Of a stretch of DNA of 56,803 nucleotides, positions 1,613 through 50,966 are shown one piece after another. Under the pieces are notes generated by a model that was not told the DNA's origin, made no database searches, and worked only from the letters and a program-made list of their open reading frames with translations. The DNA is taken from positions 1 to 56,803 of the forward strand of contig DATJXN010000135.1 in assembly GCA_035500095.1 (NCBI GenBank), given 5' to 3'. The position numbers and the translations under genes were made by a program. The first letter of the stretch is position 1. The number at the start of each line of letters is the position of its first letter. The stretch comes from Candidatus Binataceae bacterium (GTDB lineage: Bacteria; Desulfobacterota; Binatia; Binatales; Binataceae).

Positions 1613-1980
1613 AGCTGCGGCGGCGCGGCCGCGCACGCTCAGTGCCTGCGGACTCGATTCCCATGCGGCGCCGCGCGAAAACCTACGAATCGCAGGCGCG
1701 CATCCGGGGCGCGTGCGCGGCGCAAAGAATTCCGCGATCGGGAATAATCAGCATCGCGCCGGGCACAAAACGCGCGGCGGTTCCCTGCCGGTCCTGCACC
1801 CTGGCAAGGCCGGATTGAGTACGGCACGCGGGACTCGCGCGACAAATCCCGCTTTTAGGGATCGACCTTGACGCGGCGGCTCGTGGGCGGCTTGTTTATA
1901 GCGAAAAGCGGCCGCGCGTCGGAACGGCAAGCCAATCCCGTTCGACCCGCCAAGGCGCAGCATCTGAGCAGCATGCGAAC
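1613..1980. other. Intergenic region, 368 bp, no gene seen
   Basis: No reading frame here has protein-like composition. A weak inverted repeat (GCGGG at 1828-1832 with CCCGC at 1848-1852, then four T at 1853-1856) could act as a poor plus-strand terminator after the DAHP synthase, but the stem is short and the loop is long. No promoter is convincing. Confidence 0.4.
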
Positions 1981-4200
1981 GTGAACCCCACATCGGAGCG
2001 CCAAACAGTATGGGGCCGCGTCGCGCGCCATCCGTATCGCGCGGCGCTGCTCATCTACCTGGGCCTCTCGGCGGCGCTCTTCCTGCGTCCCGCCCTGCCT
2101 CACTTCACCACGATCTATCTCGGACGCGGAATCGATCAGTCCTTTTTCATCTGGTGCCTGGTATGGTGGCCGTTCGCGATCGCGCATCATCTGAATCCGT
2201 TCATCACCAGGCTTATCTTCGCGCCCGCCGGCTTCAACCTGACCTGGTCGACGTCGATTCCGCTGCTGAGCCTGATCGCGTTCCCCCTGACCGCGACCGT
2301 GGGGCCGATTACGGCGTTCAACCTGCTCTGCGTCGCCTGTCCTGCGCTTTCGGCGTGGACCGCGTTCGTGCTTTGCCACAGTCTTACGCGGCGCTTCGGC
2401 CCGTCGCTGTTGGGTGGCTACATCTTCGGCTTCTCCTCGTACATGCTGGCGCAGGCCTACGGCGGGCATCTCAATCTGCTCGCGGCGTTTCTTCTCCCGC
2501 TTGCCGTGTACCTGGTGCTGGCGCGCCTTCGCGGGAATATCGGGGAGCGGCGCTTCACGCTCGGACTGCTGATGCTGGCGACGGCGCAGTTTCTGATCGC
2601 GGCCGAGGTCGTTGCCACGATGGCGTTGTTCGGCGCGCTTGCGCTGGCGGCGGCCTGGATGCTGGGCGACGCCGATCTCCGCCGGCGCATCGTGGGGCTG
2701 GCCGCGCCGATTTTCTTCGCCGGCCTGGGCATGACGATCCTGATGAGCCCATACCTCTGGTACATGTTCGCCGGCTTTCGTGCGCTCCCGATCTATTCGA
2801 CGAGTTGGCATTCGACCGACCTCCTAAATTTCGTGATCCCCACCCCGACGGTCGCTCTCGGAGGCGCCGTGGGGCCGTTTCGCCGGGTCTCGGGCGATTT
2901 CACAAGCAACATTTCGGAGCAGGCCGGTTATGTCGGCGTGCCCCTGCTGGCGCTGGCACTCTGGTTTGTGCTCGAACGATGGCGCACCTTCGAAGCGAGG
3001 CTGTTCGGCGCGACCATAGCGATTGTCGCGGCGGCGGCGATGGGGCCGCGACTGCACGTGGCGGGCAACAGCTACTTCAAGCTCCCGTGGTCGCTGCTGC
3101 ATCGCGCCCCGTTTATCGACCAGGCGCTGCCGCTGCGCTTCAACGTTTACCTGTTTCTGACCTTTGCCCTGCTCGCCGCCGTATGGCTGTCGGCGCCGCG
3201 GCACAGCCTTACCACGCGCGCGATCGCCGGCACGCTGGTGTTCGTATCGCTTTTTCCGAATCCGTCTGCCCGGGTCTGGGCCGAGAACGGCAGCGTCGCG
3301 CCGGCCCCATCTTTTTTTACCACCGGGATGTACCGCCGCTATCTTGCGCCGGGCGAGATCGTGGCGACGCTGCCGTACGCATGGGGCGAAGCCGACGCTT
3401 GCATGATGTGGCAAGCGCTGAGCGGGATGTATTTTCGGCTCGCCGGCGGATACCCGGCGCTGAGTCCGACTTCCTATCAACGATGGCCGATCGTCCGTTC
3501 CGCCAATCAACTCGCGACGATTCCGGACCCGGCCGCTCAATGGAAAGCCTTCGCCGCGAGCCACGAAGTGACCGCGGTGCTGATGGGCAACAACTCGATG
3601 CCGGCCGCCTTCCCGTCGGTCGAGCCGATCATTGCGGCGCTGGGCGAGCCGGCGCTCACGGCGGGCGGAGTCACGCTCTATCGCGTGCCGTCGGCGATGC
3701 TCGCGCCCTATCGCGGAGTTGACTGGCTGCGGATGGAAACGCTCGTGGATACGCAGCGGTTCGGCGCCTTGCTGATCGCCGCCCAGTGCTATATCGCGTC
3801 GGGTGCAGATCCTGCGCGTCTCGCTCCGGCAAGCGCGACCAGGCTGGGATACCTGCCGGCCGCGTGGCTGCCGCTCAGAAATCGGACGACTGACTATCGA
3901 CTGTATATGCGCACCGAGTCCGACGGATTGGTCACGGTCGGCCTCTTGGGAAGCAGGGGCGCTCTGCGCCCGCTTATCGATCGCTATGGCACATATGCAC
4001 GGCGCGTCTCGTTCGCCGGAGGTGCACGGCTCGATGAGAGCGAGCCAGCGCGGGCCGCCGATACATATTACTATCCGCTGCTGATGTCGTTCGATCGAAC
4101 GGGACTCGAGCGTGCTGCCGTATTGGCGCTCTCGGAGCGGCCAAGACTCGATCTCGAATCCGAACTACCTCAATCGAGAGCAATCCATACCGCGCATTGA
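1981..4200 (+). CDS. Polytopic membrane protein, GT-C-like, array copy 1
   Basis: This is the first of four related genes (copies at 1981, 4328, 7485 and 9710). The 739-residue product has a membrane part of about ten helices (roughly residues 20-425) and a hydrophilic C-terminal part (about 430-739). The first extracytoplasmic loop carries a conserved Asp (Asp52 in YLGRGIDQSFFIW) followed by WW and NPF. An acidic residue in loop 1 of a multi-helix protein is typical of GT-C glycosyltransferases, which use lipid-linked sugar donors, so a transfer to a surface polymer or lipid is a reasonable inference. No named family was recognised. The C-terminal part shares YLAPGEIVATLPYAWG, a WPIV segment and a closing FDRTGLERAA motif with its paralogues. 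The start is GTG at 1981; the nearby ATG at 1973 runs into a stop. Confidence 0.8.
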   Translation: MNPTSERQTVWGRVARHPYRAALLIYLGLSAALFLRPALPHFTTIYLGRGIDQSFFIWCLVWWPFAIAHHLNPFITRLIFAPAGFNLTWSTSIPLLSLIAFPLTATVGPITAFNLLCVACPALSAWTAFVLCHSLTRRFGPSLLGGYIFGFSSYMLAQAYGGHLNLLAAFLLPLAVYLVLARLRGNIGERRFTLGLLMLATAQFLIAAEVVATMALFGALALAAAWMLGDADLRRRIVGLAAPIFFAGLGMTILMSPYLWYMFAGFRALPIYSTSWHSTDLLNFVIPTPTVALGGAVGPFRRVSGDFTSNISEQAGYVGVPLLALALWFVLERWRTFEARLFGATIAIVAAAAMGPRLHVAGNSYFKLPWSLLHRAPFIDQALPLRFNVYLFLTFALLAAVWLSAPRHSLTTRAIAGTLVFVSLFPNPSARVWAENGSVAPAPSFFTTGMYRRYLAPGEIVATLPYAWGEADACMMWQALSGMYFRLAGGYPALSPTSYQRWPIVRSANQLATIPDPAAQWKAFAASHEVTAVLMGNNSMPAAFPSVEPIIAALGEPALTAGGVTLYRVPSAMLAPYRGVDWLRMETLVDTQRFGALLIAAQCYIASGADPARLAPASATRLGYLPAAWLPLRNRTTDYRLYMRTESDGLVTVGLLGSRGALRPLIDRYGTYARRVSFAGGARLDESEPARAADTYYYPLLMSFDRTGLERAAVLALSERPRLDLESELPQSRAIHTAH

Positions 4201-4270
4201 CGCGAATGGTTTGGCTGCGACGATCTGAATAGCGAAATGGGCTGAATCCGTAGCAATACCGTGGCAGCGG

Positions 4271-4306
4271 CGAGCACCGATTGTTAGTATCTAATTCGGT
4301 CGCTCG
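4271..4306. repeat. Imperfect inverted repeat before array copy 2
   Basis: CGAGCACCGA (4271-4280) pairs with TCGGT (4296-4300) and GCTCG (4302-4306), with one bulged base at 4301 and a 15-base AT-rich loop. It lies in the 127-bp gap between copies 1 and 2 and ends 21 bp before the ATG at 4328. There is no T run, so it is a better candidate for an RNA structure or a protein-binding site than for an intrinsic terminator. Confidence 0.3.
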
Positions 4307-4327
4307 GATATCGCTATCGGCGGTCAG

Positions 4328-6547
4328 ATGCCTGACGCAAAACGCGCTCCCCGCCTCTTTGATCGTAAGGCGGCGGGTGCATTTCTCGCCTGCCTGACAC
4401 TGTCAGCGCTCGTTTTCGGACGCATCGTGCTTGCGCACCCGGTGAGTGTCTACGTCGGCCGCGGACCCGATCCGCAACTGTATATCTGGTTCATGGCCTG
4501 GTGGGCGCATGCGATCTCGCACTCAGTCAATCCATTCCTGACCAAAGTCATCTGGGCGCCCTCGGGCGTCAATCTCGCCTGGACCGCGAACATGCCGCTT
4601 GCTGCATGGGCGGTTTATCCCGTGACGCGGGCCTTCGGGCCGATCGTCTCGTACAACCTGGTCTGCCTGCTGTCGCCGGCGCTCGCGGGATGGAGCGCCT
4701 TCATCCTTTGCCGCTACGCCGCCGGCTGCTATTGGCCGGCGCTTTTCGGCGGATTGTTCTTTGCGTTCTCGCCGTACGTGTTGAGCCGGATGCTGGGCAA
4801 CGTGGATCTGACGTTGATGTGGCCGATACCGCTATGCGCATACGCGGCCCTGCGGCGAATCGACGGGAGCCTTGGCGCGCGCGGCTTCGTTACCGCGCTC
4901 GCGATTCTCATCGCCGCGCAATTCCTGCTGTTCGCGGAGATCGTCGCGAGCGCGACGCTGTTCGGGGCGCTCGCGCTTGTCCTGGCGGCCCCGGCGATGG
5001 GTCCCCCGGAGCGCCGCCGCCTCTTCTCGGCGGCAGCGCTTGCCGCTGTCGCATATGTGGCGGCGGCGATTCTCGTGGCGCCCTACCTCTACTACATGTT
5101 CATCCATCCGACTGCGCCGGAACAGATTTTTTCGCCCTGGCACTTCGCGATTGACCTTGCGAATCTGATGGTCCCGACCGGCGTCAACCAGCTCGGCCTT
5201 GCACCTTTCCTCGCGCCGATCGCATCCCGCTTCCGCGCCGAGCTTTCCGAGAGCGGCGCGTACCTGGCACTGCCGATAATCGCGATCGCGGTTCTCTATG
5301 CGCGCGAACGATGGAACGCGCCCAACGGCAGACTCCTTGTGCATCTGTTGATCGTAATCTGCGTGCTCGCGATGGGACCGCGGCTTGAAATCGGGGGCCG
5401 AATCGTCGTGGGACTCCCCGGCTCCGCGCTTACGCGCCTGCCGCTGCTGGACAAGGCCTTGCCCGCACGCTTCATGCTCTATGCCTACCTGGTGCTCGCC
5501 GTGATGGCCGCGATATGGCTCGCCGGCGCGAACCCGCGAACAACTGCGCGCTGGATTCTTGCCCTCGTAGCCGTGCCCTTCATGCTGCCCAATCTCTGCG
5601 CGGCCTACTGGTCGACCCCGGCCGCGATTCCCGCCTTCTTTGGCGAGGGCCTCTATCGGCAGTACCTCGCACCGGGCGAGACCGTGGTTGTGCTGCCGTA
5701 CGGAATTCTCGGCGAAGGGATGCTGTGGGAGGCCGCCACAAACATCTACTTCAGGATGGCCGAAGGTTATGTGACCTTTACGCCGCCAGTGCCGCCGGAG
5801 CAGAGCCGCTGGCCGATTATCGAAAGCCTCTACGAGCTGAGGGGTGTGCCTGCGGCCGGCGATCAGTTTAAGGCGTACTTGGCCGGCCACGACGTCGGCG
5901 CCGTCATCGTCGGCCCACGCCGGCACTACCGCGTCGGCTCGATCGACGGGCGCCCGACCGCCGCGACCTGGACGCGGGCGCCAACGCTCGCGCCCGAGCG
6001 CGACGCTACTGCCGCGATGCTCGGTTCCCTGGGTGTGCCGGCGATCGCAGCCGGGGACGTCACGATCTATCGCCTGACGCCGCGGGCACTCGCGCAAAGC
6101 CGCGCGGATACGGCGCTCGCGATGGAACAGCGCGCCCAACAGACCCGATTCGAAGCGATGGTGCTCGGTGCCGAGCGTTACCTCGATGGCGGCGGGAACC
6201 TTGCCTCGCTAAGCGTCGAGCGCGCGCAGCAACTCGGACTCTTCCCGCTCGGATGGTTCGGCGGCACGCTCGCCGGCTCCCGCGACACCAACCCGATCTT
6301 TCATTCCACGTTATTGCTGGGTCCGGCCGGCGCGGGGGGAATCGAGGTAGGGTTGGCGGACTCGTACCAGGCGCTCGAACCGATTATTCGGCGCTACGGT
6401 CCCCTCTCTGCTCGAATCTATTTTCCGTATCCCGCGCCGATGACGGCGGGTTCAACGCCGCGTGGGTCTGCTACGCTGGTGATGATTTTCGATCGCACGG
6501 GCCTCGCGCGCACGGCCGCGGCCGCCTCGGTATCGCGGACGCCGTGA
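4328..6547 (+). CDS. Polytopic membrane protein, GT-C-like, array copy 2
   Basis: The product has 739 residues, the same length as copy 1, with the same order of blocks. Loop 1 holds Asp48 in VYVGRGPDPQLYIW, followed by AWWAHAISHSVNPF and a WAPSGVNLAW segment. There are about ten membrane helices up to residue ~425. The soluble tail then shows YLAPGETVVVLPYG (about 446-459), YFRMAEGYV and a late IFDRTGLARTAAAA. The two glycine-proline blocks around the tail's start are among the best conserved stretches of the set and probably mark the fold boundary. The ATG at 4328 is the first plausible start. The 127-bp gap behind copy 1 allows either a separate promoter or read-through. Function is inferred only from topology and the loop 1 acid. 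Confidence 0.8.
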   Translation: MPDAKRAPRLFDRKAAGAFLACLTLSALVFGRIVLAHPVSVYVGRGPDPQLYIWFMAWWAHAISHSVNPFLTKVIWAPSGVNLAWTANMPLAAWAVYPVTRAFGPIVSYNLVCLLSPALAGWSAFILCRYAAGCYWPALFGGLFFAFSPYVLSRMLGNVDLTLMWPIPLCAYAALRRIDGSLGARGFVTALAILIAAQFLLFAEIVASATLFGALALVLAAPAMGPPERRRLFSAAALAAVAYVAAAILVAPYLYYMFIHPTAPEQIFSPWHFAIDLANLMVPTGVNQLGLAPFLAPIASRFRAELSESGAYLALPIIAIAVLYARERWNAPNGRLLVHLLIVICVLAMGPRLEIGGRIVVGLPGSALTRLPLLDKALPARFMLYAYLVLAVMAAIWLAGANPRTTARWILALVAVPFMLPNLCAAYWSTPAAIPAFFGEGLYRQYLAPGETVVVLPYGILGEGMLWEAATNIYFRMAEGYVTFTPPVPPEQSRWPIIESLYELRGVPAAGDQFKAYLAGHDVGAVIVGPRRHYRVGSIDGRPTAATWTRAPTLAPERDATAAMLGSLGVPAIAAGDVTIYRLTPRALAQSRADTALAMEQRAQQTRFEAMVLGAERYLDGGGNLASLSVERAQQLGLFPLGWFGGTLAGSRDTNPIFHSTLLLGPAGAGGIEVGLADSYQALEPIIRRYGPLSARIYFPYPAPMTAGSTPRGSATLVMIFDRTGLARTAAAASVSRTP

Positions 6548-6781
6548 CCTGGACTATTCGAGGGTCGCTCACTGCGCGCCGGCTTCCTTCTTGCGTCGAG
6601 CAGCGCGGCGGCCTCGGCCAGGCGCAAGGCTTGATCGACCGGGCGTACGCCGATTGGCGTTGGTACTTCCAGATAAATGTTGCCGCGAGTATCCGCCTTC
6701 GCTATCTTGCGTCCTCAGCGCTCTCCAAATTGCGCATGATTCCTTACCCACGGCAGAATCGATAAAAGTGAGCGGCGCTTC
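6548..6781 (-). pseudogene. Possible remnant of a small minus-strand gene
   Basis: Between copy 2 and the methyltransferase the minus strand has an ATG at 6737-6735 preceded by a GTAAGGAATC ribosome-binding-like stretch. Its frame stops after 11 codons. In another minus-strand frame the sequence continues as TRGNIYLEVPTPIGVRPVDQ then ALRLAEAAALLDARRK, which has protein-like composition unlike the Arg/Pro/Ala noise of antisense frames nearby. One or two frameshifts would be needed to join the parts into a reading frame of about 55 codons. I do not recognise a family. It could be a decayed gene, sequencing indels or chance. Confidence 0.2.
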
Positions 6782-7453
6782 GTGACGAACGACCAGCCAT
6801 CAGCCGATCTGCAACTGACGCCGCGCCTGCTGGAGGGTCTGGTTACCAACGGCCCGACCGACCCGATCGCCTACTACCGACGTCCGTTTGTCGGATGGTT
6901 TTTTCGCCAACGGATCAACCTTGGGCTGCGAATGATCGCGGATCGCAGTTATCCGAAGGCGCTCGAGGTCGGCTATGGCGCCGGCGCAGTGCTGCTGGCG
7001 ATCGCGTCCAGGGTCGATGAATTGCACGGCATCGATCTCGACGCTGACCCTGCCCCCGTCCAGGCCTGGCTCGCGAAGCACGGGCGCGGCGCGAGGCTCC
7101 TTAAGTGCAGTGTTTACGAACTGCCGTACGAAACCGCCGAGTTCGATCTCGTGGCCTGCTTCTCGGTCTTCGAGCATCTGCATCAGTACGAACAGGGACT
7201 GCGGGAGGTCGCGCGCGTGCTCAAGCCGGGCGGGCGCTTCCTTCTCGGCATGCCGGCGGTGAATACGATGATGGAGCTGGGCTTTCGCGCGATCGGCTTC
7301 AAAGGCATCGACGACCGTCATGTCACCCCGCCGCGAGCCGTGGCGAGCGCGTTCGAGCGCAACGGCTTGCGGGTCGCCCGGGAGGCGCGCCTGAACCTGC
7401 TTCCGGGCCTGCCGCTCTACTACAACTGGCTCCTCGAGAAAGCCGCCCGGTGA
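6782..7453 (+). CDS. Class I SAM-dependent methyltransferase
   Basis: The product has 223 residues and a class I methyltransferase fold. The glycine-rich SAM loop is LEVGYGAGAVL (about residues 61-71), the acidic end of strand beta2 is GIDLDAD (83-89), motif IV is FDLVACFSVFEHL (121-133) and the post-II block is VLKPGGRFLLGMP (146-158). This is the Methyltransf_11-like pattern used on small molecules and lipids or sugars. It begins at GTG 6782 and ends 31 bp before array copy 3, so it is probably transcribed with copies 3 and 4. By context it may methylate a glycan or lipid intermediate handled by the neighbouring membrane enzymes; the substrate cannot be read from the sequence. Confidence 0.85.
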   Translation: MTNDQPSADLQLTPRLLEGLVTNGPTDPIAYYRRPFVGWFFRQRINLGLRMIADRSYPKALEVGYGAGAVLLAIASRVDELHGIDLDADPAPVQAWLAKHGRGARLLKCSVYELPYETAEFDLVACFSVFEHLHQYEQGLREVARVLKPGGRFLLGMPAVNTMMELGFRAIGFKGIDDRHVTPPRAVASAFERNGLRVAREARLNLLPGLPLYYNWLLEKAAR

Positions 7454-7484
7454 GCGCGCTGACCTGATTCGACTATTCCATCTG

Positions 7485-9713
7485 ATGGCAGCGATGGAAG
7501 AAACGATTCACCGGCCGCCCTACGCGTTCGACCTTCGAGGAATCTTCGCATTCGCTATCTACCTGGCGCTGGCGGCGATGTTCTTCGCTAGGGGCCTTGA
7601 CGGTCGCTTCTCCACCGCATACGTCGGCAAGGGCGTCGATCCACCGCAGTTGATGTGGCTGATGGCATGGTGGCCGCACGCCATCGCCCACGGACTCAAT
7701 CCGTTGTTTACCGACGCGATCTGGGCACCGCGCGGACTCAACCTCGCGTGGGCCACTACGATGCCGCTCCTGAGCCTGGTAGCGGCCGTACCGGTTGCCT
7801 TCCTGGGGCCCGTCGCGATTTACAACCTTTGCTGCCTGCTCGCGCTCGCGCTCGCTGCCTGGAGCGCGTTCGTGCTGTGCCGCTATCTGACCAGCGCCTA
7901 TTGCGCGTCGCTGGCCGGCGGCTACGTCTTTGGCTTTTGCGCCTACACGCTCGGTCAGACTCTCGCGCATCTCAATCTGCTCCTTGTGTTTCCGATTCCG
8001 CTCTTCTGGCTCCTGATGATTCGCGGCTTTCGGGTGGATATCGCGTGGCGTCCGCTCCTCGCCGGACTGACGCTCGTGCTGGCCGCGCTGTTTTTGATGT
8101 TCATCGAGTTGTTCGCCACGATGACGTTGTTTGCGGGCATCGCTTTCATCGTCGTGCTGGGGATGGGGACGCGCGCGGAGAAGACGCGCGCCGTCAATCT
8201 TCTCCCAACCGTCGCGCTCGCCTATGCGATCGCGCTCGGGGCGCTGAGCCCGTTCTTCTATTACATGGTCGCGCTGGGCTACGACCCCGGCGCGACCCAT
8301 CCGGCGCTGCTGTACTCGACCGACCTGTTGAACCTCGCGATCCCGACCTCGACGATGGAGCTTGGACGCGCGGCGCCGTTCCGCGCCATCACGGAACGCT
8401 TCCTCGGCTTTATCTTCGAGGACGGCGGCTATATCGGTGTTCCGCTGATGCTGATCTCGGTAGCGTTCGCTCGTCGGAACTGGACTGAGGGTTGGGCGCG
8501 CGCGCTGGTGACCGTGCTGATTGTCGCGGTCATCCTCTCGCTCGGACCCTTCCTCGTGGTCGGCGGGCGGCCGATCATTCCGCTGCCCGGACTGCTTCTT
8601 GGCGCCATGCCGCTCATCGGCAAGGCGTTGCCCGTGCGCCTGATGCTGTATGCCTTTCTCGCGCTCGCCGTTATTACGGCACTATGGCTTGGCGACAGCG
8701 CTTTTCCGCGATGGGTCCGCGTGGCGGCAGCGCTAGCGGTAATCGTTTCGATCGCACCGAATCTTTCCGCGAGCTTCTGGACTTCCGCGCTCTACGTACC
8801 GCCCTTCTTCTCCGACGGGCTCTATGCGAAATATCTCTCGCCCGGCGAGACCGTGGTCGTCCTGCCGTACGGAATCAACGGCAACAGCATGGCGTGGCAA
8901 CTGCAGAGCGGATGGTATTTCAAGATGGCAGGCGGCTATGCGGGCAATCCGCCGGTTGAGTTTCGCCAGTGGCCGATAGTGCGCGCCTTCTATCGCGTCG
9001 GTACGGTTGCGCTTCCCGATGCCGGCGATCAGCTGAAGGCCTTCCTCGCGACGCATCGCGCGACCGCCGTCCTGGTCGACGATCGCGAAGCCGATATCTG
9101 GCGTCCGCTGATGGCGACCTTGAATACGGCGCCAGTCGAGGCCGGCGCAATGACCATATATCGCGCGGTGCCGGCTGAGCTCGCTCCCTGGCGGAGCGCG
9201 AGCGCGCTCGAGATGGAGACGCGGCTCGACAAGGCACGCTTCGCAGCGCTCGTGCTCGCGGCAGAGCGATACCTGCACGCCGGCCGTCCGGCGGACGGAC
9301 TGACTCCCGCCGCAGTCAGCGCGCTCGGGTTGATGCCGGCCGGATGGATCGTAATACCGGAAAAGGTAGAGCCGCCATGGAACGACGGCGGGCTCAACCT
9401 GCCGCGCCATCCGAGCGATACCCATCAACTCGACGATCTGTGGCTTCGCGTGGACGAACAGGGCCGGATCGAGGCCGGCGTAAACGGCTGGTACCCGTCG
9501 CTGCGTGCGGTGCTCAGCGACTATCGCGCCGATGCGGTCGGCTTCTTGCCGCGCGACCTGGATCGGCCGGCGCCCGCTGCCGAGGCTGATCTTCGAGGAC
9601 GGCTCGTCGTGGTCTTCAGCCGCGAGGGGCTCGAGCGTGCCGCGGCGCGGGTGCGCAGCGAGGGTAACAACGCTTCAGCGGCGCCCAACGGCAAAGACGG
9701 CGTATCACGATGA
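7485..9713 (+). CDS. Polytopic membrane protein, GT-C-like, array copy 3
   Basis: The 742-residue paralogue has loop 1 acid Asp52 in YVGKGVDPPQLMW, then AWWPHAIAHGLNPLF and APRGLNLAW. The membrane part runs to about residue 430 and is followed by YLSPGETVVVLPYGINGNSM, YFKMAGGYAG, QWPIVRAF and a terminal VFSREGLERAAARV. The C-terminal half is clearly closest to copies 2 and 4 in its PGETVVVLPYG block. The start used is ATG 7485; a second ATG four codons later is also possible. The stop overlaps the start of copy 4 by four bases (ATGA at 9710-9713), a strong sign of translational coupling. It follows the methyltransferase by 31 bp. Confidence 0.8.
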   Translation: MAAMEETIHRPPYAFDLRGIFAFAIYLALAAMFFARGLDGRFSTAYVGKGVDPPQLMWLMAWWPHAIAHGLNPLFTDAIWAPRGLNLAWATTMPLLSLVAAVPVAFLGPVAIYNLCCLLALALAAWSAFVLCRYLTSAYCASLAGGYVFGFCAYTLGQTLAHLNLLLVFPIPLFWLLMIRGFRVDIAWRPLLAGLTLVLAALFLMFIELFATMTLFAGIAFIVVLGMGTRAEKTRAVNLLPTVALAYAIALGALSPFFYYMVALGYDPGATHPALLYSTDLLNLAIPTSTMELGRAAPFRAITERFLGFIFEDGGYIGVPLMLISVAFARRNWTEGWARALVTVLIVAVILSLGPFLVVGGRPIIPLPGLLLGAMPLIGKALPVRLMLYAFLALAVITALWLGDSAFPRWVRVAAALAVIVSIAPNLSASFWTSALYVPPFFSDGLYAKYLSPGETVVVLPYGINGNSMAWQLQSGWYFKMAGGYAGNPPVEFRQWPIVRAFYRVGTVALPDAGDQLKAFLATHRATAVLVDDREADIWRPLMATLNTAPVEAGAMTIYRAVPAELAPWRSASALEMETRLDKARFAALVLAAERYLHAGRPADGLTPAAVSALGLMPAGWIVIPEKVEPPWNDGGLNLPRHPSDTHQLDDLWLRVDEQGRIEAGVNGWYPSLRAVLSDYRADAVGFLPRDLDRPAPAAEADLRGRLVVVFSREGLERAAARVRSEGNNASAAPNGKDGVSR

Positions 9714-12016
9714 GCGAGCGCGAAGGGGCGAGGGCCGCATCAGCCGACGCACCGGGATGGCGCTGCGGAACAGCGGCGCTGCTAGCTTACCTGGGACTCT
9801 CGCTACTGCTGTTCGGCCGCGCCCTCGGCGGCAGCCTGTCTTCGTTTTATGTCGGCAACGGCCCCGACCCGCCGCAATCGATCTGGTTCCTGGCCTGGTG
9901 GGCCCACGCGCTGACGGCGCGCATCGATCCCTTGTTCACGCACGCCCTGTGGGCGCCTGCGGGCTTCAACCTCGCATGGACGACCAATATCCCGCTCGCG
10001 GCGCTGCTGATGCTGCCGGTGACGCGCACGCTGGGGGCGGTCGCCGCCTACAACATTCTCTGCCTGCTCTGCCCGGTCGCCGCCGGATCGGTCGCTTACA
10101 TGCTGTGCCGGCAAATCGTGCGCGAGTTCGTTCCAGCCCTTCTCGGCGGTTTCGTCTTCGGCTTCTCGCCGTATCTGGCCTGCAAGCTGCTGGGCGATAT
10201 CGACCTTGCCTTGGTGCCCATGCTGCCGCTCGTGGCCTATCTGACTCTGCGTGCGCTGAACGAAACGATGCGCCGGCGAACGTTTGTCGTCCTGCTGGCG
10301 CTGGTGCTGGACGCGCAATTTCTGATCTTCATCGAGACCTTCGCGACGATGACGATGAGCGCCGCGATCGCGCTCGCGATCGCACTGCTGGTAACGGAGG
10401 GGAGCGATCGCGCGCGCGTGCGCGCTTTAATCCGGCCGATCGCGTTAAGCTACGCGCTCGCGATGCTCCTGCTCGCGCCGTATCTCTACTACCTGTTCGC
10501 CTATGGTTTTCCGCACGGGGCTATCTGGTCGACCAACACGGGTTCGATCGATTTGCTCAACTTCCTCGTGCCCGTACCGACGAGCGCGCTCGGCCGGTTC
10601 GACGCGATACGCGCCATATCGCGGAGTTTCCGCGCCGGAATCTACGACACGGACGCCTATCTCGGGCTTACGGTAGTGGCCGCGGCCGCAATGACGCGGC
10701 AGCGATGGAACGAGCCGGCCGTGCGGCTGCTGATCCTGTTTGCCGGGGCGATTGGCGTCCTCTCGATGGGGTCGTGGATGCAGGTGAGCGGCCGGTTTAT
10801 CGTGCCGATGCCCTGGATGATCGTTGCGGCACTGCCGCTCATCGGCAAGGCGGTGCCCGCGCGGCTGACCGTCTACATGTTCCTTGCAATCTCGATTCTG
10901 TGCGCGATGTGGATGAGCGCGAAGCCGCGGGCGGGCGCGCCGCGCCGGCCGGCTCTCAAATGGTTCGCGGGAGCTTTGATCGCGCTCTCGCTCCTGCCCA
11001 GCCTGGACGCGTCCTTCTGGGCCACGAAGCTCGCCACGCCCGAATTCTTCGCCGCCAAGCTATTTCGCCAGTATCTGCAGCCGGATGAGACGGTGGTGAT
11101 CCTGCCGTACGGCTTTGAAGGCGACGGGATGCTCTGGCAGGCCCTCTCCGCGTTCGAATTCCGGATGGCGGGCGGGTATACGGGTTTTGCGCCGCCGATC
11201 CCCGTCGAGTACGAACGCTGGCCGATTGTCGACGCACTGTACGACGTTGCGCCGATTCCCGATGCGGGCGGCCAGTTCAAGGCTTTTCTTAAGAGCCACA
11301 GCGTTGGCGCCGTGATCTTTGCGAGCGAAGGCGAGCATGCGATCGAGGTCAGCCATGCCGCGGGCCCCGGCATCTGGCAACGCGGAGCGATCGCGCCACG
11401 CGATCGCGAGGTGTGGAACGCGCTCCTGGGAGGACTCGGCGTCGCGCCGCAGAACGTCGGCGGAATGACGCTCTATCAATTGCCGGCAGAACTGCGCGCG
11501 CAGTGGCCCAGCGAGACGCCGGCCACGCTTCAGGCGCGCGCGGCGGCCCCTCGCTTCGACACGATCCTGGCGGCGGCTTACGCTTATGTCGCCAGCGGCC
11601 GCCGCCTATCCGACCTGTCCCCGCTCACAGCCCAGCAGGCGGGCCTGTTGCCGCGCGACTGGATCGGAGGTCCGCTGCTGCGCAGCGCGCAGCGACCGGG
11701 CCTGATGTTCGACGGCGTGATGCTCGCGCCGGCGAAGGCGTATCGCGTGGCGCTGGGCGTCCAGGGATCGTACGCGGCGGTCAGGCCGATTATCGACAAG
11801 TACCGCGCTTACGCTGCGGCGATCTATTTTCCCTATCCGCGCAAGCTCTCGGCGACGCCGCCGGTGGGCGACAACCCGGCGCTGATGGCGATCGTATTCG
11901 ATGCCGACCAGCTTGCGCGCGCGGCCCATACGGCACCGCTCGAACTCCAGGGCGCAGCGCCGGCGGCGAATCCATCCGCTACTCCGGCCGCGGCTTCGAC
12001 CCCTTCGGGTCCTTGA
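9710..12016 (+). CDS. Polytopic membrane protein, GT-C-like, array copy 4
   Basis: This is the longest copy, 768 residues; the extra length is an Ala/Pro/Thr-rich tail of about 25 residues after the shared closing motif. Loop 1 carries Asp53 in YVGNGPDPPQSIW, then AWWAHALTARIDPLF and WAPAGFNLAW. The soluble part shows YLQPDETVVILPYGFEG, FRMAGGYTGF and RWPIVDALYD. Its ATG overlaps the stop of copy 3. Only 48 bp separate its stop from the stop of the convergent GT39-like gene, and no hairpin terminator is evident between them. As with the other copies, a glycan or lipid transfer role is inferred from topology and neighbours, not from a recognised family. Confidence 0.8.
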   Translation: MSEREGARAASADAPGWRCGTAALLAYLGLSLLLFGRALGGSLSSFYVGNGPDPPQSIWFLAWWAHALTARIDPLFTHALWAPAGFNLAWTTNIPLAALLMLPVTRTLGAVAAYNILCLLCPVAAGSVAYMLCRQIVREFVPALLGGFVFGFSPYLACKLLGDIDLALVPMLPLVAYLTLRALNETMRRRTFVVLLALVLDAQFLIFIETFATMTMSAAIALAIALLVTEGSDRARVRALIRPIALSYALAMLLLAPYLYYLFAYGFPHGAIWSTNTGSIDLLNFLVPVPTSALGRFDAIRAISRSFRAGIYDTDAYLGLTVVAAAAMTRQRWNEPAVRLLILFAGAIGVLSMGSWMQVSGRFIVPMPWMIVAALPLIGKAVPARLTVYMFLAISILCAMWMSAKPRAGAPRRPALKWFAGALIALSLLPSLDASFWATKLATPEFFAAKLFRQYLQPDETVVILPYGFEGDGMLWQALSAFEFRMAGGYTGFAPPIPVEYERWPIVDALYDVAPIPDAGGQFKAFLKSHSVGAVIFASEGEHAIEVSHAAGPGIWQRGAIAPRDREVWNALLGGLGVAPQNVGGMTLYQLPAELRAQWPSETPATLQARAAAPRFDTILAAAYAYVASGRRLSDLSPLTAQQAGLLPRDWIGGPLLRSAQRPGLMFDGVMLAPAKAYRVALGVQGSYAAVRPIIDKYRAYAAAIYFPYPRKLSATPPVGDNPALMAIVFDADQLARAAHTAPLELQGAAPAANPSATPAAASTPSGP

Positions 12017-12064: not shown

Positions 12065-13498
12065 TCAGCGTCTGCGGACTTCGACCAGTTTGAAACGCCC
12101 GACGACCACCGGATCGCAATCGCGAAGCGCCGCGAGTTGCGCGGGCGCAAGCAGATCGTCGCGGCCCAGCAGCAGCACGTGCGGATGCGGATCGCAGCGG
12201 TCCTCCGCGCTTTCGACGCTCGCCCTGAGCTTCGGCGGCAGGTAGTAGCGAACCGCGTTTACCGCATAACCGGGGATGACGGCGAATGCGCCGCCGGGCG
12301 GCGACGCCGCGAGCGCAAGCGCCGTCGCCTCGCGCCACTGAACGTATTCGGGCTTGATGAAGTCGCGGCGCACGTGATCGAGCGACAGCGCGATCACCAG
12401 GATCAGCAGTCCGATGCGCAGCCGCGCCGAATCGATCGCGGCAAGCCCGATTGCCGCGAGGGTCAGAAATGCGGCGACGCTCGAAATCACGTAGCGCGTT
12501 TCCTCGAACGGAGTGAACGCGTAAGAGATAGCCATCACCGCCGCTACGGGCGCGAGCATCCACCACAGCAGGAAGCCGAGCGCCAGGGCGCTATTGTCGC
12601 GCTGCAACCGCCATCCTCCGTATATGGCGAGTGGCAGCAACGGCAGGAAGGGCGCCTTGCCCGTAGCGTCGCGCAGCATCTCGAGCGGCCACCACGGCGG
12701 CCGCAGATGCGACCAGCCAAGTATGCCGGCGTGCACGACGGCGATCGAAGTGCGTCCGGCCATCGGCGCGCTCGGCCCCAGCAACGCGACCCCGGCGCAA
12801 AGCGCCAGCGACGGAAGCAGCAGACGGAGTTCGGCGGCCGCCCTCGAGCCGCGGCCGACGCGTCGGCAGAGCGCCGTCCATGCGAGCCACATCGCCTCTG
12901 CGGCAACGAGCAGAGCGCCGGTAAAGTTGCACGCGATTGCGAGCGCGCTGAAAGCCGTAACGCCTACGAGACTCCCGATACGGCCCGCACGGCGCGTCCG
13001 CCCGGATACCGCGCGCAGCAAACAGATGACCTGCAGGAGTTCCAGGACCAGCAGCAGCGGATACATCCGCACCGTGCGCGCCTGGCCTATGAGTACGGGA
13101 TTGACCGCGGTCAATAAGGCCGCGAACGCCGCCGCACCGAATTCCGCATTGTGGATTTCGGCCAGACCGCAAAGACCTGATCCCAGCTCCAGCGTTGCGA
13201 GGAAAACCAGCGCGATCGCGATCGTGCCCAGGACGGCCGAAAGCGCGCGCATCGATCCTGCGCTGTCGCCCCAAAGCCCCATCCATACATGAAGCGCGGC
13301 GTCATAGAGCGCGAGTTTGCCCGGATCGAGCTTGCGTTCCAGCGCGACGACCGTACGCAGGTCAGGTGCTGCCGCACCGGCCCACGACGCGGCCTCGTCG
13401 GCGCTGAGGTCGGCCGTCTTCAGACGGTAAAAGCGCAGCCCGGCGCCGAGCATCAGGGCCAAAGCGAGCAGCGCCAACGCCGCCGTACGCGCTGTCAA
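12065..13498 (-). CDS. GT39-like (ArnT/PMT-type) membrane glycosyltransferase, tandem copy B
   Basis: The 477-residue polytopic protein belongs to the GT39/PMT-like group. The first loop has FYRLKTADLSADEAASW with the Asp34-Glu35 pair that marks the catalytic loop of ArnT/PMT-type enzymes, which take sugars from polyprenyl-phosphate donors. The frame is open further upstream, but those residues overlap the end of the upstream gene by 130 bp and look like noise. The TTG at 13498 overlaps that gene's TGA (TTGA) and begins right before the first membrane helix, so I chose it as a coupled start. It is a clear paralogue of the upstream gene: both share the ADEAASW-type loop, LDPGKLxLYD, GDSxxxMRAxSAxLGT and the closing LVEVR. 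Confidence 0.8.
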   Translation of the reverse strand: MTARTAALALLALALMLGAGLRFYRLKTADLSADEAASWAGAAAPDLRTVVALERKLDPGKLALYDAALHVWMGLWGDSAGSMRALSAVLGTIAIALVFLATLELGSGLCGLAEIHNAEFGAAAFAALLTAVNPVLIGQARTVRMYPLLLVLELLQVICLLRAVSGRTRRAGRIGSLVGVTAFSALAIACNFTGALLVAAEAMWLAWTALCRRVGRGSRAAAELRLLLPSLALCAGVALLGPSAPMAGRTSIAVVHAGILGWSHLRPPWWPLEMLRDATGKAPFLPLLPLAIYGGWRLQRDNSALALGFLLWWMLAPVAAVMAISYAFTPFEETRYVISSVAAFLTLAAIGLAAIDSARLRIGLLILVIALSLDHVRRDFIKPEYVQWREATALALAASPPGGAFAVIPGYAVNAVRYYLPPKLRASVESAEDRCDPHPHVLLLGRDDLLAPAQLAALRDCDPVVVGRFKLVEVRRR

Positions 13499-15004: not shown

Positions 15005-16417
15005 TCACTCCTGGCGGCGCCCGACGCGCAGCTTCTCGCTGATCAGAAGCGCATTGAGCGCGGCACTGAGGCGCACCGGGTAGGCGTCGGGACGATCGAT
15101 GTCTTTGTAGCGAGGGTCCAGCTTGGCGAAGGATTCCAGCAAGCGCTCGCGCGCCTCGCCGAGCTGCGGCCGCGTGCCGATTCGACGGCCGTCGGCGAAC
15201 ACGCGCTCGAGTACCGGACGCACCGATGCGGGCGCGGGACGAAACTCGCGCTGCAGATTGTCCGGACTTTCCTCGAACAATCCGACGAGGTCGGCGAAAA
15301 AACCGTCGGCGGCGTTGCGCGCGCGGAAAACCTGTTTGCGGCCGGGCAGCGTGGCTTTTTCGCTCGAGGTTTTCAGGCGCGGTTCACCCCGGTATTCGAC
15401 CAGCTTGTAAGCCACGTCGAGCGCGGGCGCATCGGCGCTCACGGCCATCTCGGTGCCCACGCCAAATGCGTCGATCGGCGCGCCGGCCTTGACCAGCTCG
15501 GCGATACGATATTCATCGAGATTGCCGCTGGCGAAGATCGGAACCTCGGCAAGATCGCGCCGATCGAGCACGCGCCGCGCGCGCTTGCTCAGTTCCAGCA
15601 GATCGCCGCTGTCGAGCCGGATGCCCTGGAGCTTGGCGCCCCTCTCGCGCAACTCGAGCGCCACCGTGGCCGCGTTCTCGACCCCGCGCAGCGTGTCATA
15701 GGTGTCGACGAGAAGTGTGCTCAGCCGCGGAAAAACCTTGACGTAGCTCTCGAAGGCCTCGCGCTCCTGCTCGTGCGCCATCACGTAGCTGTGCGCCATC
15801 GTCCCGTACAGCGGAATCCCGTACCGCAGTCCGGCGAGCACGTTGGAGGTGCCGGCGAAGCCGGCGATATAGCTCGAGCGCGCCGCCACGAGGCCCGCGT
15901 CGGCGCCCTGGCTGCGGCGCAGCCCGAAATCGATCAGCCGCCGCCCACCGGCCACCACGAGGCTGCGCGCCGCCTTGCTCGCCACGAGCGACCCCATCCC
16001 GATCTGGTTGAGAACCAGCGTTTCGATCAGCTGCGCCTCGATGAGCGGCGCCCGTACTTCCAGGATCGGTTCGGTGGCGAAAAAGATCGTGCCCTCGGGC
16101 ATCGCCCAGACCTCGCCGCTGAAGCGCAGAGTGGCGAGGAAATTCAGGAAGTCGGAGGTGAACAGTCGCAGCGATTCGAGGTATTCGAGCGCCCGCGGGG
16201 CGAAATCAAACTGCTCGAGCGCCTCGAGCAGCCGCTCCAGCCCGGCCGCCACCAGGAAGCCGCGGCGCGCCGGTAGCCGGCGCGTGAACATGCTGAAGCA
16301 GGCTGTGTCGTTGTTGCCGGAGGCGAAATACGCCGCAGCCATCGTGAGCAGATAGAAGTCGCAAAGCAGCGGGACTTCGTCGGCATCGAGGCGCAGATCG
16401 ATCGGCATCTCAGGCAA
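15005..16417 (-). CDS. pncB: Nicotinate phosphoribosyltransferase
   Basis: The product salvages nicotinate to nicotinate mononucleotide with PRPP and ATP in the NAD pathway. The 470 residues fit the family. It opens with LLCDFYLLTMAAAYF (substrate-binding Tyr and Asp region), then FSMFTRRLPARRGFLVAAGL, IDFGLRRSQG, GTMAHSYVMAHEQE (the family's phosphorylatable active-site His region), GIRLDSGDLLELSK and DAFGVGTEMAVS (phosphate-binding loop). The start used is ATG 16417; the ATG three codons later is equally possible. It follows the Lon-like protease by 41 bp on the same strand and may be its downstream operon partner. Confidence 0.93.
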   Translation of the reverse strand: MPEMPIDLRLDADEVPLLCDFYLLTMAAAYFASGNNDTACFSMFTRRLPARRGFLVAAGLERLLEALEQFDFAPRALEYLESLRLFTSDFLNFLATLRFSGEVWAMPEGTIFFATEPILEVRAPLIEAQLIETLVLNQIGMGSLVASKAARSLVVAGGRRLIDFGLRRSQGADAGLVAARSSYIAGFAGTSNVLAGLRYGIPLYGTMAHSYVMAHEQEREAFESYVKVFPRLSTLLVDTYDTLRGVENAATVALELRERGAKLQGIRLDSGDLLELSKRARRVLDRRDLAEVPIFASGNLDEYRIAELVKAGAPIDAFGVGTEMAVSADAPALDVAYKLVEYRGEPRLKTSSEKATLPGRKQVFRARNAADGFFADLVGLFEESPDNLQREFRPAPASVRPVLERVFADGRRIGTRPQLGEARERLLESFAKLDPRYKDIDRPDAYPVRLSAALNALLISEKLRVGRRQE

Positions 16418-16458: not shown

Positions 16459-19008
16459 TCAGCGTGGCGGGACCGGGGGCGTCGGCGGCGGCGGCACCGG
16501 CGCGGGCGACGGACCGGCCTGCAAGCCGCGAGTCTCCTCGGGCGGACGGCGCTCGCGCAGGATGTCCGACATGCGATGCAGGCGAGCGCTGACGAGATGA
16601 TTGACCGTGCCTGGCTCCTCGAGCGCGCCCGCGCGAACGCCGGTCAGGATCTCGATCCCCTCATCGATCGTGCTTACCGGATAAATGTGGAAGCGCCCGC
16701 TCGCGACCGCCTCGACCGTCTCCGGTTCGAGCATCAGGTTGGTGACGTTGGCGCGCGGCAGCAGGACGCCTTGCGTGCCGCTCAGCCCGACCGCCTTGCA
16801 CACGCGGTAAAAGCCTTCGATCTTCTCGTTGGCGCCCCCTATCGCCTGCACCGCGCCGTACTGGTCGACCGAACCGGTGACGGCCAGGTCCTGGCGGAGC
16901 GGCACGCCGCTCAGCGTCGAGAGCAGCACGTAGAGTTCGGTCGAACTCGCGCTGTCGCCATCGATCCCGGAGTAGGATTGTTCGAAGGCGATGCTCGCGG
17001 TCATCGAGGCGGGCAAATCCTGTCCGAAGCGCTGGCGAAAGAAACCGCTCAGGATCATGACGCCCTTGTCGTGAGTCGATCCCGACAGCCGCGCCTCGCG
17101 CTCGATGTTGATGACGCCGGCCTGGCCGAGCGCGACGGTCGCGGTGATGCGCGCGGGACGGCCGAAGCTGTAGCCGCCGGCGTCGAGCACCGCCAGCCCG
17201 TTGACCTGGCCGACCTCGCCGCCCCGCAGATGGACGACGATCGTGCCTTCGGCGATCAGACGGCGGATCTCCTCTTCGATAAAGTTGAGGCGCAACACGC
17301 GTTCATTGAGCGCGCGATCGACGTGGCGCGCGCCGACCACCCGGTCGTTGGCCGCACGCGCGTAGTACGCCGCTTCGTGCGCGAGATCGTCGATCGGCTC
17401 CATCACGCTCGATAGCCGCTGACGGTCGCCCGCCTCGCGCATCCCGAACTCCACGATCCGCGCGAGCGCCGCGCCGTCGAAATCGGGCAGCCCCTCGTCC
17501 TTGGCCAGCGCTGACACGCGCATGGCATAATGGCGCGCGGCCTCCGCGTCGGCATCAACCACCGGACGCAGTTCGGCCTTGACCTTGAACAGCTCTGCGA
17601 ACTCGGGGTCGTAAAAGTACAGCAGGTTGTAAAGATAGGGGCTGCCGGTGACGATCACCTTGGCCGCCAACTCGATCGGCTCGGGCTTGAGCCCGCTCAC
17701 CATGAAAAACGGAAACGGTTCCAGCGTCTCGAGCGTCATACGGCCCGTCTTGAGCGTCCGCTTGAGCGCCTTCCACACGCCCGGCTCGACGATCGCGTCG
17801 TCGAGGTCGAAGAGCAGAAATCCGCCGTGCGCCTTCACCAGGGAGCCGCCGATAATGCGCGTGAAGTTGGTTGCGCTGCGGCCGCTCGGGTCGATCCAGC
17901 GCTCGATCGTGCCGAATAGGTTGCGATAGGTCGGCGCGTCCTCGGCGATCACGGGAGCGCCGCTTCGCCCCGCGTTATCGACCACCACGTTGACCTGGTA
18001 CTCGAAGAATCGGCTCTCCTCCGGTCCGTCGGCGCGCTGCAGAGGCAGCGGACGCGGCGAGGCCTCAGGGCCCGTCTCGGCGGCTTCGCGGAAGCGATCC
18101 AAATGGTCGAGCATGTGCTCGGCAACCTGATCGAGATAGTTCGTTACGGCTTCGCTCTCGAAGCGCGTCTTGAGCGCGGCGATAGCCGGCGCAATCAGAC
18201 GGGCGGCGAAAGTGCGCTCGATCTGGCGGATTTCTCCGACCAGCTCGCGCATCAGCTCCTGCTGACGCATCGCCATCGTGGCGAACGAGTCGGCAAGCTC
18301 GCCCTGAGCCTTGGCCAGCCGGTCGCGTTCCGCCTCGGGAAGCTCCTGCATCACGCGGCTGAGCTCCTCGGGCGATTCGGGCGCTTTGCCGTTGATGAGC
18401 GGAATGAAAATGACCTGGCCGGAAGCGGTCCCTTGGATCGCGAAGCCGCGCTCGCGCGCCGCGTTCTCGAGCTGGGCAAACAGCTCCTGGGCGCGGCGGT
18501 TGTACTTTTCGCGCAGCGCCTTGCGCTCCTGGTCAAAGTCCTCGCGGCGAAAGGCCTTGGGCAGCTGCTCGATGAGGAAGCTGACGAGATCGCGCATCCC
18601 GTCACGCAATTCCGCGCCCTGCCCGGCGTGCAGGTAGATCGCCACCGGCGACTCCGGGCTCTTGTAGTTGTTGACGTAGACCCAGTCCCCCGGCGTCGGC
18701 GTCGCCGCCGCCTGCTGCTGCAGGATGCGAACGATCGACTCGCGCTCGCGGCGGGACCGCACCCGGCTCACGAAGACGTTGTAGCCGGGCGCGCCGATCC
18801 CAATCGCCATCCGTATCGCGTCGAGCGCCCGCTGCTGCCCGAGCAGCTCGTGGGCGCCGTCGCGCGCCGCGTTCACGAGCTCGTCGGGGCTAAGCGGAGA
18901 GCGGCCGCGCAACTCGTCCACGCGGAGCTCCACCGGCGAGGCCGCAGGCTTAAGCGCCTGCTCGTGCGGCGCCGGCGCGGGCTTCTTGTCGTCCCCCTCG
19001 ACCATCAT
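16459..19008 (-). CDS. Lon-like protease with degenerate Walker A (LonC-like)
   Basis: The product has 849 residues. The C-terminal Lon peptidase domain (about 590-800) has the Ser-Lys dyad: Ser686 in YSGIDGDSASSTELYVLLS and Lys729 in IGGANEKIEGF. The ATPase-like part starts with LLGQQRALDAIRMAIGIGAPGYNVFV (about 55-80). In relatives this leads straight into a GPPGTGR/K-type P-loop; here residues 81-90 read SRVRSRRERE, so no P-loop remains. The DNA gives no simple frameshift that restores one. A long helical insertion (about 150-310) follows, then GGFLLFDLDDAIVEPGVWKALKR. Lon-like proteins with an inserted coiled coil and lost Walker motifs (LonC of Thermus and Meiothermus) degrade unfolded substrates without ATP, so an ATP-independent protease is likely. 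It lies 24 bp behind hsp20 on the same strand. Confidence 0.85.
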   Translation of the reverse strand: MMVEGDDKKPAPAPHEQALKPAASPVELRVDELRGRSPLSPDELVNAARDGAHELLGQQRALDAIRMAIGIGAPGYNVFVSRVRSRRERESIVRILQQQAAATPTPGDWVYVNNYKSPESPVAIYLHAGQGAELRDGMRDLVSFLIEQLPKAFRREDFDQERKALREKYNRRAQELFAQLENAARERGFAIQGTASGQVIFIPLINGKAPESPEELSRVMQELPEAERDRLAKAQGELADSFATMAMRQQELMRELVGEIRQIERTFAARLIAPAIAALKTRFESEAVTNYLDQVAEHMLDHLDRFREAAETGPEASPRPLPLQRADGPEESRFFEYQVNVVVDNAGRSGAPVIAEDAPTYRNLFGTIERWIDPSGRSATNFTRIIGGSLVKAHGGFLLFDLDDAIVEPGVWKALKRTLKTGRMTLETLEPFPFFMVSGLKPEPIELAAKVIVTGSPYLYNLLYFYDPEFAELFKVKAELRPVVDADAEAARHYAMRVSALAKDEGLPDFDGAALARIVEFGMREAGDRQRLSSVMEPIDDLAHEAAYYARAANDRVVGARHVDRALNERVLRLNFIEEEIRRLIAEGTIVVHLRGGEVGQVNGLAVLDAGGYSFGRPARITATVALGQAGVINIEREARLSGSTHDKGVMILSGFFRQRFGQDLPASMTASIAFEQSYSGIDGDSASSTELYVLLSTLSGVPLRQDLAVTGSVDQYGAVQAIGGANEKIEGFYRVCKAVGLSGTQGVLLPRANVTNLMLEPETVEAVASGRFHIYPVSTIDEGIEILTGVRAGALEEPGTVNHLVSARLHRMSDILRERRPPEETRGLQAGPSPAPVPPPPTPPVPPR

Positions 19009-19401: not shown

Positions 19402-19505
19402 CTGTCGTAATATCCGAAGGCCGATTCTAATGCGCCACGATACTCGGAATCCACCCCGCCGAGCACTTGCCCAGGGCTGCGTGACAAGCGTATGGTCTGT
19501 CAGCC

Positions 19506-19991
19506 GTGCCTGAACTCAAGAAGATTCTGCTGGCCACCGATTTTTCCGACGACTCGCTCAACGCGCAGCGGTTTGCCGAGGAACTCGCGCGCAAGTTCGG
19601 CTCCGAAGTGATCATCCTGCACGTCGACCAACCGCTGCCGCCGGTGATGGTGAGCGAACTGGGACCTGCTTTCGACGTGAGCGCGATGAACCAGATAGCC
19701 GAGGAGCAGCGGCTGGGCGCGCAGCGCGAGATCGACCGGATCGTCGCCCAATTTCGCGACGCTCAAATCAAGGCGCGGAGCCTTCTGCGCGTCGGCGCTC
19801 CGTTTCTCGAAATCATCCACGCCGCACAAACCGAAGGCGTCGACCTGATCGTGCTCGGCACGCACGGCCGCTCCGGCCTTGCGCACGTGCTGCTGGGCAG
19901 CGTGGCCGAGCGCGTGGTGCAGAAGGCCGGATGTGCGGTGCTGACCGTGCGCCATCCCGACCGCCGCTTCAAGCATCCGCTCGAGAAGTAA
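19506..19991 (+). CDS. Universal stress protein, UspA family
   Basis: The 161-residue single-domain Usp begins MPELKKILLATDFSDDS (the nucleotide-binding start strand and Asp). It carries the ATP-binding signature G-2x-G-9x-G-S near the C-terminus (GTHGRSGLAHVLLGS), followed by ERVVQKAGCAVLTVR. The presence of the full signature argues for an ATP-binding Usp rather than the non-binding UspA subtype. Members are cytoplasmic and modulate survival under stress. The start is GTG at 19506 without a visible Shine-Dalgarno sequence. Its divergent partner is hsp20, which supports shared stress control. The stop codon lies inside a short tandem repeat. Confidence 0.93.
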   Translation: MPELKKILLATDFSDDSLNAQRFAEELARKFGSEVIILHVDQPLPPVMVSELGPAFDVSAMNQIAEEQRLGAQREIDRIVAQFRDAQIKARSLLRVGAPFLEIIHAAQTEGVDLIVLGTHGRSGLAHVLLGSVAERVVQKAGCAVLTVRHPDRRFKHPLEK

Positions 19992-40745: not shown

Positions 40746-43367
<2,622 letters not shown>

Positions 43368-49238: not shown

Positions 49239-49272
49239 CTGCGATATCTCTCCGTCCGCCGCCGGGTCCGCG

Positions 49273-50721: not shown

Positions 50722-50966
50722 TCGCGCACTCCACGGGACGAAACGATCATAACTTCGGGTCGAGTCTAGCAGAGCGAAAGCGCCTTCGGCACGTTGGCGC
50801 CGGAGGTTTGCCGATGGTGGCGGGTTTGCGGCCGCCTTCGGATGATTTTCGACGCTTTGTGACGCGCTGCCTACGGGCGGACGGCGGCGATGTTTGCATG
50901 AAACAGCGGCGAAGCCGGGGCGGCTACGGTGCTGTTTTGTACCGGAATCGGGATATTCGCCCGGTT

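Follow-up and report, generated by a model that had tools for sequence, protein, structure and literature searches.

A LonC-type protease of Candidatus Binataceae with a degenerate Walker A loop, encoded beside an Hsp20-like gene

What kind of enzyme is a Lon-like protease in which charged residues stand at the place of the P-loop, and would it need ATP? The question is raised by an open reading frame in a 56,803-nucleotide stretch of Candidatus Binataceae DNA (hereafter, the window), where SRVRSRRERE is found instead of a Walker A motif. A sequence-only reading had likened the protein to the ATP-independent LonC proteins of Thermus and Meiothermus and taken it for a simplified quality-control protease. 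The protein, its relatives, its predicted structure and its gene neighbourhood were analysed with this in view.

Domain layout and LonC assignment

The frame is unbroken from ATG to stop, with 0 internal stops (Table 1). Within the S16 protease domain the Pfam Lon_C match itself covers residues 683-786; an NCBIfam scan of the protein gave Lon matches below threshold only. Among the Pfam matches there was neither a LON substrate-binding (LonA N-terminal) domain nor a second ATPase domain, and hydropathy gave no transmembrane segment (the maximum 19-residue Kyte-Doolittle mean was 1.07, with no stretch above 1.6). The LonA active-site motif PKDGPSA is absent and IDGDSAS is found instead. Ser686 lies within this motif and Lys729 within GGANEKIEG. 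Both residues are invariant in a 56-sequence homologue alignment, so the protease dyad is intact, as the sequence-only reading had it.

LonC proteins have been described by an S16 domain with GDSA, an insertion CX3GLX(G/E) that follows the catalytic Lys helix, a phi-X2-A-phi insertion and degenerate AAA+ motifs, together with the lack of the LonA N-terminal domain and of LonB-type transmembrane segments (PMC3391209). At the phi-X2-A-phi insertion (helix alpha5) the aligned stretch here is TVEAV, in which the first position is Thr and not hydrophobic. The best PDB sequence match was LonC of Meiothermus taiwanensis (MtaLonC, E 6e-92), followed by Thermococcus LonB (E 8e-23). An AlphaFold2 model built with 56 diverse homologues reached pLDDT 87 and pTM 0.75, an earlier one from 19 close relatives having been weak (pLDDT 70). 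The model superposed on MtaLonC with Z 41.3 and rmsd 3.1 over 580 residues and on the MtaLonC cryo-EM chain with up to 712 residues aligned (Z 40); the values were Z 22.7 for the LonB of Thermococcus onnurineus and about 19 for LonA. From sequence and model, assignment to LonC fits, because Pfam detects LonC_helical, MtaLonC is the best PDB match in both sequence and fold, and the CX3GLXG insertion is present. This insertion also occurs in relatives whose loop reads GxxGxG[R/K] and hence marks the wider family.

Table 1. Features of the window at and around the LonC gene
Feature	Position	Strand	Basis
Predicted LonC-type protease with degenerate AAA module, 849 aa	16459..19008	-	ORF, Pfam, PDB match, fold comparison
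Former Walker A, residues 82-90 (RVRSRRERE)	18739..18765	-	alignment to homologues
LonC_helical, residues 108-141	18586..18687	-	Pfam
AAA_32, residues 350-480	17569..17961	-	Pfam
LonB_AAA-LID, residues 510-573	17290..17481	-	Pfam
S16 protease domain, ~residues 595-795	16624..17226	-	Pfam and fold comparison
Catalytic Ser686 (LonB/LonC-type GDSAS)	16951..16953	-	alignment
Catalytic Lys729	16822..16824	-	alignment
LonC-specific insertion CX3GLX(G/E), C737-K-A-V-G-L-S-G744	16777..16800	-	consensus from PMC3391209
Nicotinate phosphoribosyltransferase, directly downstream	15005..16417	-	Pfam; neighbour in most Binataceae
Hsp20/alpha-crystallin-like protein, 122 aa	19033..19401	-	Pfam, upstream-gene profile
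Universal stress protein, divergently transcribed	19506..19991	+	Pfam; neighbour in most Binataceae
ClpB-like protein (Clp_N, AAA domains, ClpB_D2-small)	40746-43367	-	Pfam

Loss of the Walker A loop

SRVRSRRERE spans residues 81-90, S81 ending the first strand, and its alignment to the relatives' P-loop is gap-free: R82 takes the place of Gly1, S85 of Gly4, R87 of Gly6, E88 of the Lys and R89 of the Thr/Ser. In the AlphaFold2 model a strand (78-81), a short turn and a helix (86-102) are predicted at this site. The replacement of Walker A proposed from the sequence thus stands, as does the claim of an otherwise aligned frame, with no deletion or frameshift. The loss is common to every Binataceae homologue; Walker A is absent from all 34 distinct proteins, and in each of them the Lys is replaced by Glu88 and the Ser/Thr by Arg89. 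Arg84 is likewise invariant (34/34). The Gly1 position holds G in 31 of these proteins and R in 3, the latter being the window's genus; T, S, G or A occupies the Gly4 position and the Gly6 position is variable. R84, E88 and R89 are accordingly fixed across the family while the neighbouring positions 85 and 87 vary. The close relatives compared include Candidatus Binataceae, Candidatus Binatus soli and Candidatus Binatia MAGs.

In the other Binatia (n = 11) the same loop positions read G, G, E/D, K/R and L. Among 41 relatives outside Binatia, counted with the odd-loop rows L002, L087, L102, L123 and three others set aside, G is found in 41, 39 and 40 and is followed by R in 33 or K in 7; Arg is thus at the Walker A Lys position in 33/41 of this wider AAA_32 family (loci L071-L129). 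More degenerate P-loops are also seen elsewhere in the family (L123, GLTGANRID; L087, GLNGAESLS), which suggests repeated erosion. A second AAA_32/LonC-like protein of the same genome (L002, G000 contig C43:1942-4218), 39% identical to the window LonC, has Met at the Walker Lys position (GGTGVGMRD) and falls near Chloroflexota proteins in the tree; its gene was possibly acquired horizontally.

The remaining ATPase motifs were compared in the same alignment. The Walker B Glu is missing family-wide, the typical stretch being YLIxNA or YLVxDA, and the window LonC has GGFLLFDLDD, with no catalytic Glu after Asp401 (FDL where DE is expected). Position 535, which may correspond to sensor 2 (sensor names are assigned from alignment alone), is Arg in 27/41 relatives and Ser in the Binatia outside Binataceae; most Binataceae have Met, Val or Leu there, the window LonC having Val535. 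As judged from these alignments, its AAA+ motifs (Walker A, Walker B Glu and sensors) are degenerate. Loss of Walker A may count for less than appears, since loss of the Walker B Glu extends to the whole family, including members annotated 'ATP-binding protein'.

That a sequencing or assembly error, or paired frameshifts, scrambled a normal P-loop could be argued from the fragmented source assembly (a 3.6-Mb genome in 156 contigs, the window being contig C135), and carries next to no probability. The reading is ruled out by the 34 distinct proteins of Binataceae, which come from separate assemblies and share the loss at equal loop length. The window loop is also one member of a graded series seen on the tree, and dN/dS stays below 1 throughout the region. 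Two LonA proteins of the same genome, with PKDGPSAG active sites, keep GPPGVGKTS and GPPGTGKTS, so the assembly reads P-loops normally.

Between pairs of Binataceae, dN/dS was about 0.02-0.3 for the former P-loop and AAA parts and similar, 0.03-0.25, for the protease part, values which are approximate given the simple counting method and the short P-loop segment. By this estimate purifying selection acts on the pseudo-ATPase domain. The low dN/dS, together with three invariant charged loop residues among varying neighbours, points to a former loop and AAA part that has been retained in a changed role and is not a dying domain.

A tree was built from residues 336-795 only, leaving the loop columns out. 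All Binatia proteins form one clade (100/99), within which the Binataceae clade is supported at 100/100. Binataceae are sister to L102, with loop GLTGNRKE (98/95), and the GLTGSEKL group lies beside both (98/92). Along the tree the loop passes from GxxGxG[R/K] in the wider family to GLTGSEKL in other Binatia, GLTGNRKE in L102 and GLRTRxER in Binataceae, the last step being R[VIL]R[ST]RRER in the window's genus. When the tree is rooted among P-loop-bearing relatives, Gly6 is the first to be lost, followed by Gly4 together with the change of Lys to Glu; Gly1 turns into Arg last, and in the window's genus alone. A single protease family thus provides a natural series that starts at relatives with a P-loop and ends at a complete pseudo-ATPase, and the tree shows in which order the losses came.

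A loop loss independent of that in Thermus LonC was favoured by the first tree and gains no support from the AU test. Constraining Binatia and MtaLonC together was not worse (p-AU 0.665), MtaLonC being a single very long branch whose sequence was taken from the PDB alignment with residues 183-248 missing; close kinship is neither supported nor rejected. E. coli YcbZ, with a branch of about 4, was too divergent for safe placement.

Linkage to an Hsp20-like gene

The hsp20-like gene ends 24 bp before the start of the LonC gene, on the same strand. Searches with a profile of the Hsp20-like genes, among relatives with enough upstream sequence, found an Hsp20 gene directly upstream in 57/57 Binataceae loci, which include genomes present in both collections (the distinct LonC proteins number 34), in 9/10 other Binatia and in 2/38 other relatives. 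The upstream protein of non-Binataceae Binatia is a clear Pfam HSP20 (E 8e-19 to 6e-22). That of the window is divergent (21.2 bits against a Pfam cut-off of 20.8), and the L014 piece falls below the cut-off. Because the Binataceae Hsp20 is so highly diverged, its sequence does not assure chaperone activity. The gene linkage is newly noticed here; a literature search on proteases of Binatota and on a pairing of Hsp20 and LonC genes gave nothing relevant among the papers listed.

In the spacer between the universal stress protein and hsp20-like genes (19402-19505), two short blocks are conserved across Binataceae, around GATACGCC and TTAxAATC, and are perhaps a conserved divergent promoter. No heat-shock motif (CIRCE, sigma-32) was consistent across Binataceae in this spacer, and a scan for sigma-70 promoters and terminators gave chance-level results. 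Elsewhere in the window, an array of four large ORFs of 739-793 aa (1819-12016, plus strand) matched nothing in Pfam, even at E 1. These ORFs are 37% identical within each of two pairs (1819-4200 and 4328-6547; 7485-9713 and 9710-12016) and, from their sequences, look like polytopic membrane proteins, perhaps glycosyltransferase-like. ORFs 48763-50769 (plus strand, 668 aa) and 12065-13453 (minus strand, 462 aa) likewise had no Pfam match at E 1.

Proposed function and comparison with known Lon proteins

MtaLonC has no ATPase activity, assembles its ring without nucleotide and, without ATP, cuts unfolded but not well-folded proteins; it retains a Walker-A-like GPPSLGKHE, and each hexamer binds six nucleotides (PMC3391209). 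Its ring is a hexamer in solution and a heptamer in cryo-EM entries. By analogy with this enzyme, ATP-independence of the window LonC is most likely. We consider it probable, at about three chances in four, that the window protein is an ATP-independent LonC ring protease in which the AAA ring forms a fixed gate free of nucleotide, and that it acts on clients probably held by Hsp20. The subunits would form a closed LonC-like ring, in which the AAA-like layer, having no nucleotide chemistry, would serve as a fixed gate and a scaffold leading to the protease chamber. R84, E88 and R89, at the phosphate positions of an ATPase, may hold the shape of this layer, and since Glu replaces the phosphate-binding Lys, the ring would be even less ATP-capable than that of MtaLonC. 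Unfolded chains would enter without a power stroke and be cut by Ser686-Lys729. The upstream protein, of an ATP-independent chaperone family, would probably hold unfolded clients and pass them to LonC, a hand-over that gene order suggests. Together the two would make a holdase-protease pair that needs no ATP, for use under stress or when energy is low. We infer the lack of ATPase activity, the ring assembly, the role of the charged motif and the client hand-over from these comparisons. That Binatia evolved an entirely ATP-free proteostasis module, with the LonC ring locked by R84, E88 and R89 as a charged latch and co-evolving with a dedicated client-delivering Hsp20, is put forward only tentatively.

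Other readings of the protein were weighed against the ATP-independent gate. It could be an ordinary LonC that holds nucleotide as a structural ligand through non-P-loop residues, its Walker A having changed by neutral drift after loss of ATPase activity. MtaLonC, without ATPase activity, yet binds ATP-gamma-S with a Kd of 7.8 µM (PMC3391209), and the AAA fold of the window protein is predicted to be intact. We regard this as unlikely, as MtaLonC has Gly1, Gly6 and Lys, whereas here a conserved Glu stands for the Lys and Gly6 is gone, and drift is at odds with invariant R84, E88 and R89 beside variable 85 and 87. The fixed gene pair and the strong divergence of the Binataceae Hsp20 would suit a dedicated regulatory protease, driven by the Hsp20-like protein as an adaptor towards specific substrates and not towards general quality control, which two LonA and a ClpB-like protein already cover. 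This too has a low probability, the closest studied enzyme being a general degrader of unfolded proteins (PMC3391209). An ATP-dependent protease with an alternative ATP site might be supposed from the label 'ATP-binding protein' given to relatives in plasmid records, and is most improbable: the protein lacks the Lys of Walker A, the Glu of Walker B and an Arg at the sensor-2-like position, and Pfam shows no other ATPase domain. This routine annotation of related genes is misleading here.

The term simplified, applied to the protease in the sequence-only reading, is itself misleading. The protein is 130 aa longer than MtaLonC (849 against 719 aa), its pseudo-ATPase part appears to be under purifying selection, and the genome keeps two intact LonA and, within the window, the ClpB-like protein. 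The locus also makes it possible to test whether a chaperone and a protease that both work without ATP are encoded as a fixed pair.

Among known systems, archaeal LonB (Thermococcus onnurineus, 3K1J) has related AAA and protease folds (Z 22.7), but it carries functional Walker motifs as well as membrane segments (PMC3391209), neither of which the window LonC has. E. coli YcbZ shares the DGDSAS protease type and the missing Walker B Glu, with no recognisable Walker A in its 586 aa; it differs in a much shorter N-terminal part and a very long tree branch. The wider AAA_32/LonB-like family (Chloroflexota, Acidobacteriota, Gammaproteobacteria, Thermomicrobium), at ~33-43% identity and with the same four Pfam domains in those scanned, mostly keeps GxxGxGR or GxxGxGK, unlike Binataceae. 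The fit to Thermus and Meiothermus LonC holds for the kind of enzyme: the LonC of M. taiwanensis (PDB 4FW9, 8K8V) and Thermus TTC1975 share the domain order, the GDSA Ser-Lys dyad and CX3GLXG, and MtaLonC also a Walker B without Glu and the fold (Z 41). It does not extend to the loop, as MtaLonC keeps Gly1, Gly6 and Lys and binds nucleotide, whereas the window LonC has Glu for the Lys, has lost Gly6 and has an Hsp20 gene upstream. The window LonC thus represents an advanced and conserved pseudo-ATPase state of a known kind of enzyme.
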